Assembly: GCF_002234375.1 (NCBI RefSeq)
Contig: NZ_NMQV01000009.1
Location: 1 to 64,000, forward strand
DNA: 64,000 nucleotides
Direction: 5' to 3'
From: Pseudomonas fluvialis
Lineage (GTDB): Bacteria; Pseudomonadota; Gammaproteobacteria; Pseudomonadales; Pseudomonadaceae
Of the stretch, positions 36,324-40,716 are shown in pieces. Both the position numbers and the translations under genes were made by a program. Positions within the stretch are counted from its first letter, which is position 1; the number at the start of each line of letters is the position of its first letter. The notes beneath the pieces were generated by a model. That model had not been told where the DNA came from and did not search any database. It saw only the letters and a list, made by a program, of their open reading frames with translations.

Positions 36324-37691
36324 ATGAGCGTGCAAAGCAAACCGCAGATGGTTGAGGCCGTGCTGTTCTTCAACGAGCGCGGCATTTGCAAGGAGATGTT
36401 TTATCCCGAGTTTGAGGCCATGCTCGATGGCGTGGTGAACTTTGCCGAGTTTGCTGACCGGCAGATGCGGGCGGCCTATGTGTTGATCAATCCGCGGCTG
36501 TTGATTCGCTCGCTGGTGCTGTTCTACCTGGACTTCGACGAGCAGGGGAGAGCCGATACCGGCTGGAACATCCCGCTGCGTCATCTGGCGGAGAAGGCCG
36601 GCCGTGGCCCGGATTTGGGGGCAGGGCCGATTCGTCTGGCCTGCCGCAGCCAGTGCCCGGTGTCCTGGCACCAGATGCACCTCTGGGATCCCAGCCTGGC
36701 ACCCACCCAGAATGATCTGGTACTGCTGCGCGATGCCGTGAAACGCAACAACCTCGGTGTGCTGGTCGAGGAAGACAGTGCGCCGGTTGAACTGGGCCGT
36801 CTGCAGGTGGCTTCGGAGGATCGCTGGTATGCCAAGCCGGACGCCGAGCGCGAGGAGGCCGCGCGCTTGGCCGAGCAGTTGGAGCAGGAGCATCGCCAGA
36901 AAACCGCCCAGTTGATCAAGCAGCAGCGACTGCGCATCACCAGCCTGATCGCCCAGCATGAGGAAGAGCTGGCCAAGGCACGGCTGGCTGCTGAGCAGCA
37001 GCTGGCACCGTTGCAGGAGCAGTTGTTGCAGTTCCAGCAACAACTTAAACAGCAGCAGGCACTCAATCAGAACCTCAAGCAGCAGATTCAGGCGCAGAGT
37101 GACAGTTTTGCCCAAGCGCGCCAGGAGATGCAGGAGCAACTGCGCAGCATCGAACACAGCGGTCAAACGGAAAACGATAGCCTGCGCAGCCAGTACGAGG
37201 CCGAGCTGCAGGCCAAGGTGCGTGCGGCCGTGGTCGAGTACAAGGAGCAGATTGCCATTCGCGACATGGAGCTGGCCTATCGCCATGAACAGGATGCTCA
37301 GGCGCAGGCGGAAATCCAGCGTCTGCGCCAGCAGTGCGAGCACTTGGCCAGCCAGGGCGGCGAGCAGATACTTGAGCGTCTGTCGCGACTAGGCGTGGTG
37401 TTCGTCGCCTATCATCCGGGCGCGGGGCACCTGACCATCCCTCTGCAAGACATGGCGCGCTATCAGGACAACCCGGTAGGCTACGCAGCCAGTAAGTGTT
37501 TTGTGGCCGAAGGGCAGTATCGCAAGTGGTTGGCGCACTATCAGGAGCCGACGTGCGAGGCCAGTCTGGCCAATGGCGAGCGGTGTGCGATGCCCCTGGA
37601 TCGGGTCGACACGCCGAGCCGTTTTGTCGATGGGGATAGCAATTGCTGCTCACGCCACAAGGTTGCCTCTCGGGTAAAAAGCCAGGCCTGA
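36324..37691 (+). CDS. Conserved coiled-coil protein of unknown function
   Basis: A 455-residue cytoplasmic protein. The first ~175 residues are a conserved globular domain (VEAVLFFNERGICKEMFYPEFEAMLDGV..., PVSWHQMHLWDP). Residues ~180-375 are a long glutamine- and glutamate-rich coiled coil (LAEQLEQEHRQKTAQLIKQQ and on), and the last ~80 residues are a small Cys/His-containing domain (CEASLANGERC, CCSRHK) that might bind metal. Homologues before the ACC-deaminase-like and nadK genes are, from memory, often labelled chromosome partitioning proteins without evidence I can see. ATG 36324 with GGAG seven bases before. Role unknown. Confidence 0.85.
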   Translation: MSVQSKPQMVEAVLFFNERGICKEMFYPEFEAMLDGVVNFAEFADRQMRAAYVLINPRLLIRSLVLFYLDFDEQGRADTGWNIPLRHLAEKAGRGPDLGAGPIRLACRSQCPVSWHQMHLWDPSLAPTQNDLVLLRDAVKRNNLGVLVEEDSAPVELGRLQVASEDRWYAKPDAEREEAARLAEQLEQEHRQKTAQLIKQQRLRITSLIAQHEEELAKARLAAEQQLAPLQEQLLQFQQQLKQQQALNQNLKQQIQAQSDSFAQARQEMQEQLRSIEHSGQTENDSLRSQYEAELQAKVRAAVVEYKEQIAIRDMELAYRHEQDAQAQAEIQRLRQQCEHLASQGGEQILERLSRLGVVFVAYHPGAGHLTIPLQDMARYQDNPVGYAASKCFVAEGQYRKWLAHYQEPTCEASLANGERCAMPLDRVDTPSRFVDGDSNCCSRHKVASRVKSQA

Positions 37692-38641
37692 ACCTGCTGC
37701 GTGATGTTCCGGTAGCGTTGCAGCGGGTGAATAGCGACTGGTTGCAGCAGGCCGGTGTTGAGCTGGCCGTGTTGCGACTGGATCAACTGGATCCCGTGCT
37801 GTCCGGCAACAAGCCGTTCAAACTGGCCGGCTACCTGCAGCTGGCTCTATCTCAGGGTGCCTGTGGCCTGCTCAGCGTGGGCGGCGCACACTCCAATCAC
37901 CTGCATGCCCTGGCTGCACTGGCTAAGGAACAGGGCTTGCCCTGTGTCGGTTTGCTGCGCGGCGAGCCGCAGCAGACGCCTACCGTAATGGATCTGCAGG
38001 CTTGGGGTATGACCCTGCACTGGTTGAGTCACGGAGATTATCGTCAGCGCCACCATGAATCTTTCTGGCCTGCCTGGCAGGCACGCTATCCCGGTTATCT
38101 GCTGATTGGCGAAGGTGGCAGCGGTGCACCTGGCCTGTCGGGCTGCGCGATGATTGTCGAGCACCTGCGTGCCGGGTTGGCAGGTATTGGCTGGTCTGAC
38201 TATGACGCGCTGTGGCTCGCTGTGGGCAGTGGCACAACCTTGGCCGGCCTGGTGTTGGCCGAGCAGGGCGCGCATCCGTTGTGGGGCGCGCTGGCGCTGC
38301 CGCCGCGCTATCAGCCACAGCGGCAGATCGAGGCGTTGCTGGCTGAGGCAGGCTGCCCGGCAGGTGGTTATCAGCTGGTGGATGCCAGCCTGGGAGGCTT
38401 TGCTAGAGTCAATGCAGAGCTGCTGCAGAGCATGGGTGATTTTACCCGGCACAGCGGTATACCTTTGGAGCCGATTTATACCGGCAAGGCCTTGCTGGCA
38501 TTGCGCCAATATGTGCAGCGGGGTTACTTTCCACCAGGAACCCGCCTGGTCATGCTGCACACTGGCGGTTTGCAAGGCGTGCGTGCCCTGCAGACCGATG
38601 ATCGGCAAGGGTGCAACCCGCAGGAAGCCCGTGATGAATGA
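37643..38641 (+). CDS. PLP-dependent ACC deaminase / D-cysteine desulfhydrase family protein
   Basis: A 332-residue fold-type II PLP enzyme. The PLP lysine motif is SGNKPFKLAGYL (about residue 55), followed by SVGGAHSNHLHALAALAKEQG with the typical Ser/Asn substrate loop, and VGSGTTLAGLVLA for the phosphate. This group includes D-cysteine desulfhydrase and ACC deaminase; the exact substrate cannot be told. The start is a TTG at 37643 with GGGGA upstream, overlapping the coiled-coil gene by 49 bases; the only later alternatives (GTG near 37727) would remove conserved residues. Its stop overlaps the next gene by 8 bases. Confidence 0.85.
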   Translation: MLLTPQGCLSGKKPGLNLLRDVPVALQRVNSDWLQQAGVELAVLRLDQLDPVLSGNKPFKLAGYLQLALSQGACGLLSVGGAHSNHLHALAALAKEQGLPCVGLLRGEPQQTPTVMDLQAWGMTLHWLSHGDYRQRHHESFWPAWQARYPGYLLIGEGGSGAPGLSGCAMIVEHLRAGLAGIGWSDYDALWLAVGSGTTLAGLVLAEQGAHPLWGALALPPRYQPQRQIEALLAEAGCPAGGYQLVDASLGGFARVNAELLQSMGDFTRHSGIPLEPIYTGKALLALRQYVQRGYFPPGTRLVMLHTGGLQGVRALQTDDRQGCNPQEARDE

Positions 38642-39743
38642 CGCCTTGACCCCGGCTCAGTTGCGTAGTTTGACGCCGCTGAACATGCTTTCCGAGCAGC
38701 AGTGGCGCGAGTTGCGCACGCAACTGGTGCCGCAGCATGTATTGGCCGGGCAATTGTTGTTCCGCCGCGGCGATCAGGCGCGCACGACCTATTACCTGCT
38801 CAGTGGCGAGCTGCTACTGGAAGATGCTGATGGCTGCGAGGAGCGTCTGCAGGCTGGCACTGTCGCCAGCTGCCATCCGTTGTCGCCGGCCTTGCCGCGT
38901 GTGCAGCAGGCTCGAGCCCTGAGTGACGTCAGTGTGCTGGTGCTGGACAGTGCCACGCTGACTCGTCTACTGACCTGGCATTCCGCCTTGCAGGGGTTGT
39001 TGCTGGAGTTGCAGCAGGATGGCGAGGATCTTGAGTGGTTACAGCGCCTGCTGGCCAATCCGTTGTTTGCTCGTGTTCCTCCCGCCAACGTGCGTGCCAT
39101 GCTGGGTCGTCTGCAGCCGGTTACGCTGCCGGCGGGCAGTGTGGTGCTACAGGAAGGTGAGCAGGGTGATTGCTGCTATTTCCTCAAGCAGGGGCGGGCC
39201 GAGGTATTACGTGGCAGTGACAGCGAGCGCCAGGTATTGGCCGAGCTGGAGCTGGGTGCCTGTTTCGGTGAAGAAGCCCTGCTGGCCGATCGTCCGCGCA
39301 ATGCCAGCGTCACGCTGCTGGAAGATAGCCTGTTGTTGCGCCTGGATCGCCAGGATTTCGTGGCGCTGCTCAAGGCACCGGTAGTCGATCAGCTGTCGCT
39401 GGGCGAGGCCTCGCGTCTGCTGGCGCAGGGGGCGGCCTGGCTGGACGTGCGCCTGCAGGATGAATACCAGCAGGCGCATGCAGCTCAGGCGTTGAACATG
39501 CCGTTGCACCTGCTGCGCCTCAAGGCACGCCTGCTGGACAAGGAGCGCAGTTACATCTGCTACTGCGACAGCGGCAAGCGCAGTGCCAATGCCGTCTACC
39601 TATTGGCTCAGTTGGGTTTCAGTGCCTATGCCCTACGGGATGGTTATGACGCGCTGCCGGCGTTGCAGCGCGATGCGCTGCTTAGCGAGAACGGTGCCGG
39701 CTACCTGGCGCGCAGTGGTGGACGCATCGAGCGTAGTGCCTGA
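38634..39743 (+). CDS. Protein with two cyclic-nucleotide-binding-like domains and a rhodanese domain
   Basis: A 369-residue cytoplasmic protein. An N-terminal cNMP-type beta barrel (about residues 20-120, GQLLFRRGDQARTTYYLLSGELLLE), a second and better one (about 150-250, GSVVLQEGEQGDCCYFLKQGRAEVL and GACFGEEALLADRPRNASVTLLED), and a rhodanese fold (about 265-350) with the loop CYCDSGKRSANAVYLL, whose Cys could carry persulfide. The second barrel keeps the G-E-x-A-L...R-N-A phosphate cassette; Arg is followed by Asn, which fits cAMP-type binding loosely. There is no DNA-binding or kinase output. ATG 38634 with AGGA ahead. Confidence 0.88.
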   Translation: MNDALTPAQLRSLTPLNMLSEQQWRELRTQLVPQHVLAGQLLFRRGDQARTTYYLLSGELLLEDADGCEERLQAGTVASCHPLSPALPRVQQARALSDVSVLVLDSATLTRLLTWHSALQGLLLELQQDGEDLEWLQRLLANPLFARVPPANVRAMLGRLQPVTLPAGSVVLQEGEQGDCCYFLKQGRAEVLRGSDSERQVLAELELGACFGEEALLADRPRNASVTLLEDSLLLRLDRQDFVALLKAPVVDQLSLGEASRLLAQGAAWLDVRLQDEYQQAHAAQALNMPLHLLRLKARLLDKERSYICYCDSGKRSANAVYLLAQLGFSAYALRDGYDALPALQRDALLSENGAGYLARSGGRIERSA

Positions 39744-39828
39744 TCCAGGGCGTTTGCCGGTTTGCTGAGGGATCGTGCTTTCGCCCATAATCGAGCCCTT
39801 TTCGGGCGGTGTGGCAGGCAGGGGTCCC

Positions 39829-40716
39829 ATGGAGCAGTTCCGCAATATCGGCATTATTGGCCGCCTCGGCAGCACCCAGGTGCTTGATAGCATCCGGCGT
39901 CTCAAACGCTTCCTGCTCGACCGCCACCTGCATGTGATTCTTGAAGACACCATTGCCGAAGTGTTGCCAGGGCATGGCCTGCAGACCTGCTCGCGGAAGA
40001 TCCTCGGTGAAGTCTGCGATCTGGTGATCGTGGTGGGCGGCGATGGAAGCATGCTCGGTGCGGCGCGGGCGCTGGCACGTCACAAGGTGCCGGTACTGGG
40101 GATCAATCGGGGTAGCCTGGGCTTTCTGACCGATATCCGCCCGGATGAGCTCGAACAGAAGGTTGCCGAGGTGCTGGATGGCCAGTACCTGGTGGAGAAC
40201 CGCTTTCTGCTGGAGGCCGAGGTGCGTCGGCATGGTGAGGCGATAGGTCAGGGTGACGCCCTGAACGATGTGGTGCTGCACCCGGGCAAGTCGACCCAGT
40301 TGATCGAGTTCGAGCTGTATATCGATGGGCATTTTGTCTGCAGTCAGAAGGCCGACGGGTTGATCGTGGCCACACCGACTGGCTCGACCGCCTATGCGCT
40401 ATCGGCCGGCGGGCCGATCATGCATCCCAAGCTGGATGCGATTGTGGTCGTGCCGATGTATCCGCATACGCTGTCCAGCCGACCGATCGTGGTCGACAGC
40501 AACAGCGAACTACGCATCGTGGTGTCGCCGAATATCGCGATCTACCCGCAGGTATCCTGTGACGGCCAGAATCACTTTACTTGTGCGCCCGGCGATACCA
40601 TCACGGTGTTGAAGAAGCCCCAGAAGCTGCAGCTGATCCATCCGCTCGACCACAACTACTACGAGGTCTGCCGCACCAAGCTGGGCTGGGGGAGCCGCCT
40701 GGGCGGAGGCGATTGA
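39829..40716 (+). CDS. nadK: NAD kinase
   Basis: A 295-residue enzyme that phosphorylates NAD to NADP. The diagnostic GGDGS lies at residues 70-74 (VIVVGGDGSMLGAAR), followed by GINRGSLGFLTDI and the conserved TPTGSTAYALSAGGPI. The start is ATG 39829 (MEQFRNIGIIGRLGS); a longer frame upstream is not needed. Its TGA overlaps the next ATG (TGATG), so the downstream phosphoesterase is co-translated. Confidence 0.97.
   Translation: MEQFRNIGIIGRLGSTQVLDSIRRLKRFLLDRHLHVILEDTIAEVLPGHGLQTCSRKILGEVCDLVIVVGGDGSMLGAARALARHKVPVLGINRGSLGFLTDIRPDELEQKVAEVLDGQYLVENRFLLEAEVRRHGEAIGQGDALNDVVLHPGKSTQLIEFELYIDGHFVCSQKADGLIVATPTGSTAYALSAGGPIMHPKLDAIVVVPMYPHTLSSRPIVVDSNSELRIVVSPNIAIYPQVSCDGQNHFTCAPGDTITVLKKPQKLQLIHPLDHNYYEVCRTKLGWGSRLGGGD

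Follow-up and report, generated by a model that had tools for sequence, protein, structure and literature searches.

Gene and Domain Content

The window analyzed here is a 64,000-nucleotide stretch of Pseudomonas fluvialis DNA (RefSeq assembly GCF_002234375.1, contig NZ_NMQV01000009.1, positions 1 to 64,000). On its plus strand, to which all coordinates of window features below refer, lies a gene (38634..39743) for a protein of 369 amino acids plus stop, here called CNR, in which two cyclic-nucleotide-binding barrels (CNB1 and CNB2) are followed by a rhodanese domain. New here are the asymmetry of the barrels, with invariant E213, R222, and C311; an association with adenylate cyclases; and a gene linkage older than Pseudomonas. 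The tie of CNR to cyclic AMP (cAMP) synthesis is the strongest new fact, and any claim on the role of the rhodanese is the weakest link.

The gene was assigned from its open frame, translation, Pfam matches, and orthologues, and it starts with ATG, preceded at 6 nt by an AGGAAG motif (found by eye). Pfam placed PF00027 (cNMP_binding, E 1.3e-32) on two stretches and PF00581 (Rhodanese, E 9.9e-13; 48.9 bits against a curated cut-off of 22.2) behind them, both families above their curated scores; beyond these, nothing fell below E 0.3, and no DNA-binding or kinase domain was found. The domain content is certain, and the sequence-only reading of this DNA was confirmed in describing two cNMP-type barrels and a rhodanese whose Cys loop is intact, without a DNA-binding or kinase part. 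CNR is not a chance frame, since the 80 Pseudomonas-type relatives that were kept align to it over nearly the whole length with 68 to 78% identity. A second full-length copy was not seen in the 3.29-Mb genome of the window, where the other three matches each span a single domain. The same genome encodes a CNB-like protein with an apparent GGDEF domain (L004:1393-2412, plus strand; GGEEF by eye).

A CRP/Fnr-type regulator was rejected because Pfam found no helix-turn-helix family; the NCBIfam CRP and FtrB models hit only the CNB2 part, below cut-off. A family 2B encapsulin was ruled out because Pfam found CNB and rhodanese only, without an HK97-fold shell domain; the NCBIfam encapsulin model covers residues 151 to 247 only, also below cut-off. 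In the passages of PMC8346489 that concern them, family 2B encapsulins carry a cNMP-binding domain on an HK97 shell protein, a domain that CNR is without; some of their operons include a cysteine desulfurase, and rhodaneses are enriched near cysteine-desulfurase systems.

Sequence Sets

The Pseudomonas-type set held the best 80 of 151 confirmed loci and is therefore biased toward close relatives; with the window it gave 81 aligned sequences. The titles of these loci name Pseudomonas, Pseudomonadaceae, and a few metagenome-assembled genomes of Gammaproteobacteria, some of which are named to family or class only. A further 28 sequences were the top scorers from a search of 276 gammaproteobacterial genomes (completeness of at least 90, evenly drawn), and one locus from the same family as the window (L085) was excluded from both groups. 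Conservation in the resulting 109 sequences was checked on 60 further members, hand-picked among the matches listed.

A Canonical Second Barrel behind a Degenerate First

CNB2 (residues about 137 to 247; 39042..39374) was delimited from Pfam, alignment, model, and structure comparisons. It contains a phosphate-binding cassette, LGACFGEEALLADRPRNASVTLLED (39252..39326), whose motif FGE..AL....RNA has F211, G212, E213, L216, R222, N223, and A224 identical in 109/109 sequences. CNB1 (residues about 12 to 125; 38667..39008, bounds approximate), drawn from the alignment and an AlphaFold2 barrel, lacks the Gly-Glu of the cassette, with R89 retained in 81/81 Pseudomonas-type sequences and 26/28 others. 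The canonical cassette is thus present in CNB2 and not in CNB1 throughout the 109 sequences, and the earlier idea that both barrels are sensors does not hold. Among the 60 further members, E213 was kept in 58, R222 in 59, N223 in 55, A224 in 60, and R89 in 52.

Comparisons with solved structures fit this asymmetry. CNB2 alone matched PKG and PKA regulatory chains in the PDB (best E 4.3e-23), and CNB1 alone had no match among PDB chains better than E 0.06. The AlphaFold2 model of CNR (35 sequences; mean predicted local distance difference test [pLDDT] 74.5, predicted template-modeling score [pTM] 0.51) has two CNB barrels, and Foldseek ranked the tandem CNB parts of PKA-R and PKG first (E 7e-17). 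VIA-align gave CNB2 a Z of 16.9 and a root mean square deviation of 1.7 over 117 residues; its rows span CNB2 only, which makes the missing rhodanese row uninformative. PKA and PKG regulatory parts thus share with CNR the tandem CNB arrangement and a canonical cassette, and CNR differs from them in its degenerate CNB1, its rhodanese output, and the lack of a fused kinase.

Single barrels on other enzymes also match CNB2. Bd1971, described in passages on it as a cAMP-sensing EAL phosphodiesterase, carries a CNB on an enzyme (6hq3 matches CNB2, E 5e-10), and the NCBIfam model of mycobacterial Pat, an acetyltransferase with a bacterial CNB, matches CNB2 at 1.3e-17. Unlike CNR, both are other enzymes and have a single CNB.

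Two cysteines near the CNB2 cassette, Cys181 (39174-39176) and Cys210 (39261-39263), are invariant in 35 aligned Pseudomonas-type sequences, and position 210 is Cys in 1/28 of the other sequences; a redox input through them is possible.

Rhodanese Domain and Tail

The rhodanese domain (residues about 255 to 340; 39396..39653) was assigned by Pfam and by a sequence search of the PDB, in which PspE was the nearest solved rhodanese (E 1.5e-9) and YgaP and CoA-persulfide reductase were also among the matches. Its active-site loop, C311-D-S-G-K-R316 (39564..39581; translation and alignment), has six residues, the length typical of sulfurtransferases, Cdc25-type phosphatases having seven. The loop CNAGRQS of PspE, a thiosulfate sulfurtransferase, aligns to CDSGKRS of CNR; unlike CNR, PspE consists of one domain that stands alone. 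Neither C311 nor R316 varies in the 109 sequences. Of the 60 further members, 55 have Cys and 5 have Ser at position 311; R316 is found in 50, and cassette and Cys are jointly retained in 53. Of four segments compared within Pseudomonas, the C-terminal tail (residues 341 to 369; 39654..39740), defined from conservation and the model, is on average the most conserved.

Co-occurrence with Adenylate Cyclases

Cyclases were scored in the 276 genomes as class I (PF12633 over cut-off; G036, with a sub-cut-off match, was scored negative) or class III (PF00211), and were found in 83 and 175 genomes, respectively. A genome counted as CNR positive with a match at E <= 1e-30, a threshold of our own choosing; for matches weaker than about 1e-51, whose coordinates were not listed, full length was unchecked. 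Any cyclase was present in 122/124 CNR-positive and 67/152 CNR-negative genomes (p 4e-26), and a class I cyclase in 75/124 and 8/152. When one genome was taken for each of 157 families (the lowest-numbered of each, with the window's own genome representing its own family), the counts were 69/70 versus 39/87 for any cyclase and 39/70 versus 3/87 for class I. The genome of the window carries both classes. Only G073 and G213 were CNR positive without a cyclase match, and in G073 the member examined (L231) has lost the Cys.

Distribution and Paralogues

Some CNR match at E <= 0.001 was found in 253 of the 276 genomes, and nearly all listed matches cover about residues 10 to 340. Because 124 of these genomes hold relatives at E <= 1e-30, the architecture is a common one, contrary to the sequence-only reading, which had called this output unusual and possibly uncharacterized. 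CNB-rhodanese fusions were also already tabulated: Kannan et al. 2007 (PMC2246266), for their "Other_bacterial" group, count rhodanese with the domains joined to bacterial CNBs. The passages of that survey on this group share with CNR a CNB attached to a rhodanese homology domain and single out no protein, ligand, or function; the tandem CNB order, the degenerate first barrel, the association with cyclases, and the gene linkage go beyond them.

Within the genus of the window, CNR (E <= 1e-20) was found in only 14/79 genomes sampled, so many members are without it. By gene order, the PAO1 locus of CNR is presumably PA3089, and a literature search under that name returned no paper. Searches with rhodanese and cyclic-nucleotide terms and with locus names likewise found no description of CNR in the literature covered; one hit, PMC12604733, has no bearing on it, as the two kinds of term stand only in separate table rows in the part concerned.

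Three of the 79 genomes, all among the 14 with CNR, have a second CNR-like gene that keeps the cassette as R-S-A, with TPEGGIRS replacing the Cys loop (L164:5091-6239, minus strand; L183; L184). Endoh and Engel, in 2009, reportedly described CbpA of P. aeruginosa (PA4704) as having a degenerate CAP domain at its N terminus and a cAMP-binding one at its C terminus, similar to PKA-R. Its likeness to CNR lies in this degenerate first and cAMP-binding second barrel, and CbpA is not known to have a rhodanese. The paralogues may be CbpA; in that case a cAMP-binding member of the family would already be on record, and one with a Cys-less rhodanese. CbpA is mentioned in passages of PMC11139211, PMC7247823, and PMC3019171; according to the first of these, CRP is the only route by which cAMP exerts global control in most bacteria, and P. 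aeruginosa has CbpA as a further effector.

Gene Neighborhood

Upstream of CNR lies a gene for a pyridoxal 5'-phosphate (PLP) enzyme of the 1-aminocyclopropane-1-carboxylate (ACC) deaminase/D-cysteine desulfhydrase superfamily (37643..38641, start codon uncertain; PDB relatives 1j0a and 4d97). The protein matches PF00291 above cut-off, as a PLP-dependent enzyme of fold II, and its GNK, SNH, and YTGK motifs align with both structures; it scores far below the matched D-cysteine desulfhydrase cut-offs in NCBIfam (PRK03910.1-3, 61.1 versus 429 bits; subfamily TIGR01275, 78.8 versus 289.4). Before it stands a gene for a coiled-coil protein, here HYP (36324..37691, start inferred from relatives), a conserved neighbor without a Pfam match, in which conserved N- and C-terminal parts, the latter Cys rich, flank a long coiled coil. 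Only the coiled coil was confident in its AlphaFold2 model (mean pLDDT 53.5, pTM 0.23). Downstream lies the NAD(+) kinase gene NADK (39829..40716; PRK01231 above cut-off).

The PLP gene adjoins CNR in all 80 loci; HYP is present in 79 of them (the sole exception, L017, is a cut contig) and NADK in 76. The block fadH, HYP, PLP, CNR, NADK, phosphoesterase, rhomboid, DUF2797, and pepN is broadly syntenic. NAD kinase was not upheld as an operon partner: in the 76 loci its aligned part starts 0.96 to 1.54 kb after the CNR stop, about 1 to 1.5 kb away, versus 85 nt to the start codon in the window (39744-39828), whose genome may be missing a gene between the two. The recurrent neighbors HYP, PLP, and NADK are not protein kinases; kinase partners encoded elsewhere were not sought. 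One open reading frame beside a CNR gene (L149:5951-8215, minus strand) has, by eye, the look of a Ser/Thr protein kinase, with GGMSTVYLA close to its start.

At the level of the order, 195 genomes were surveyed (CNR at E <= 1e-25, best CNR per genome), of which 92 have HYP and 59 have CNR. HYP lies within 2.4 kb of the best CNR in 34/59, with gaps of less than 0.4 kb in 12, 0.9 to 1.4 kb in 21, and 2.4 kb in 1. The gap is the size of a PLP gene in 22 genomes, and 16 of these were confirmed by sequence (the window, L123, and L144 to L157). In the 25 unlinked genomes, HYP is on another contig in 17, far away in 1, and absent in 7; the 17 mean that broken assemblies may hide links. Twenty regions were then hand-picked among those listed, including 17 CNR-positive ones spread over 11 further families of the order, and in these the PLP gene lies between HYP and CNR in 14 and not in 3, with NADK nearby in 16. 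In L124, from another family of the order, HYP and CNR overlap by 4 bases with no PLP gene between them. Regions without CNR have HYP and PLP (L161, from G355, a genome of another genus in the window's family), HYP and NADK (L162), or HYP only (L163). Outside the order, stand-alone CNR has different neighbors: none of the window's neighbor genes was matched in the seven such regions covered. The HYP-CNR linkage is older than Pseudomonas, and counts across the order's regions make HYP the steadiest partner and PLP a frequent one, neither being obligatory.

The 8-base overlap of the PLP-type gene with CNR pointed out in the sequence-only reading is real, the PLP stop codon (TGA, 38639-38641) lying behind the CNR start, and it recurs exactly in only 4/80 relatives (other spacings, -4 to +177). 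The sequence-only reading named separation of the two genes elsewhere as a refutation, and on this point it stands, as they are kept together in 80/80 loci and 14/17 regions; the PLP gene is not obligatory, given the 3/17 regions and L124, with CNR and no PLP gene between, and L161, with PLP and no CNR.

Interpretation

We propose, with about an even chance of being right, that CNR is a cAMP effector resembling PKA-R with a sulfurtransferase output, in which CNB2 gates the rhodanese. CNB2 would bind cAMP, as its invariant canonical phosphate cassette and the co-occurrence with cyclases suggest, and CNB1, with its cassette lost, may act as a structural or docking barrel. Binding of cAMP would alter the packing of CNB2 on the rhodanese directly behind it, and the altered packing might open or close access to a persulfide-forming Cys311, by analogy with other CNB-gated enzymes. 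Gene linkage suggests a setting in sulfur/thiol homeostasis together with the PLP enzyme and HYP. CNR probably binds a cyclic nucleotide and is somewhat more likely than not to have a catalytic rhodanese; allosteric gating, argued by analogy, falls slightly short of an even chance, and a functional coupling to the PLP enzyme, suggested by gene linkage, is doubtful. If the proposal is true, cAMP would act on sulfur chemistry directly and not through gene regulation, and CNR would add a direct enzymatic cAMP output with a concrete link to sulfur/thiol chemistry.

Several observations weigh against this proposal. Across four genome-size bins, the link with any cyclase is significant in three and not in the largest (p 0.15); for class I, the two larger bins reach significance and the two smaller do not (p 0.13 and 0.055); lineage effects are only partly controlled by taking one genome per family. 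G213 is a counterexample, keeping cassette and Cys (L109) without a cyclase match. N223 replaces the Ala, Ser, or Thr that usually follows the cassette Arg, which makes the ligand preference of CNB2 uncertain; the forms PRAAT, PRTAT, and PRSAT appear in the table of Kannan et al. 2007 (PMC2246266). The rhodanese part of the CNR model is weaker (residues 275 to 288 and 352 to 369 below 50), and with 275 to 288 below 50 and the whole-model pTM given above, the gating geometry is unsupported. The loss of the Cys in 5/60 members and in 3/3 same-genus paralogues means that catalysis is not needed in every relative. A desulfhydrase yields sulfide and a rhodanese uses sulfane sulfur, which leaves no obvious direct relay between the PLP enzyme and CNR. 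Finally, EAL domains (cyclic di-GMP [c-di-GMP]), taken as a control, also occur in 122/124 CNR-positive genomes (108/152 CNR-negative). Within EAL-positive genomes, cyclases still separate the groups (120/122 versus 60/108, p 1e-16), and within cyclase-positive genomes EAL adds little (120/122 versus 60/67, p 0.01); c-di-GMP, offered in the sequence-only reading as a ligand to try beside cAMP, was rejected on this ground, the association being with cAMP synthesis.

The main rival is that CNR is a cAMP-dependent scaffold or localization protein, perhaps CbpA-like, in which CNB2 would bind cAMP and the rhodanese fold would serve for protein binding and not as an enzyme. Paralogues that keep the cassette with the Cys loop replaced (3/3), relatives whose module is followed by long coiled coils (by eye), and a coiled-coil neighbor in HYP all speak for it; Cys and cassette are nonetheless retained together in 109/109 and 53/60 sequences, which would be needless for a mere binding domain, and we consider it a tentative alternative.

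A sulfur relay, in which the PLP enzyme would work on a cysteine-like substrate and CNR would pass the sulfur on under cAMP control, is compatible with our proposal and would account for the adjacency in 80/80 loci and 14/17 regions of other families. It is rather unlikely, given the regions that lack one partner (no PLP gene between in 3/17 and L124, no CNR in L161) and a PLP protein far below each matched NCBIfam D-cysteine desulfhydrase cut-off. Equally improbable is ordinary conserved gene order among neighbors without a functional link, which concerns the linkage and not the mechanism of CNR: the broad synteny from fadH to pepN favors it, whereas the HYP-PLP-CNR unit persists in one orientation in 14/17 regions while the CNR-NADK distance varies. 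Least likely is a CNB2 that responds to a different purine (cGMP or a nucleoside) or is now ligand free, as the atypical N223 and trypanosome PKA, which binds nucleosides according to passages on it, would allow, against the invariance of E213 and R222 and the association with cyclases, including those of class I, which make cAMP.

More broadly, and only as a tentative suggestion, CNB-CNB-rhodanese modules might form a widespread nontranscriptional cAMP branch in Gammaproteobacteria, controlling persulfide transfer directly and in parallel to CRP/Vfr; these modules would either stand alone or be joined to coiled coils and to domains like sulfatase-modifying factor.

Architectures of Relatives

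Stand-alone relatives have about 350 to 390 amino acids; others run on into long coiled coils (by eye) to about 800 to 900 amino acids, one to 1,292. Some add to the coiled coil a C-terminal FGE-sulfatase-type domain, found in 2/4 scanned (PF03781, E 2e-62 and 2e-59). That the fused coiled coils are HYP was rejected on Pfam matches, which were only to CNB, rhodanese, FGE-sulfatase, and weakly to coiled coils, with no direct comparison to HYP. L115:5749-11226 (minus strand) and L118:6734-12316 (plus strand) encode CNB-CNB-rhodanese, a coiled coil of ~1,000 residues and a hydrophobic stretch (by eye), and a PF03781 domain; L114, L116, and L117 resemble them by eye. CNB-CNB-rhodanese-coiled-coil genes also occur in pairs, divergent in L120:3594-9376 and L121:2428-9410 and tandem in L122:5261-10747.

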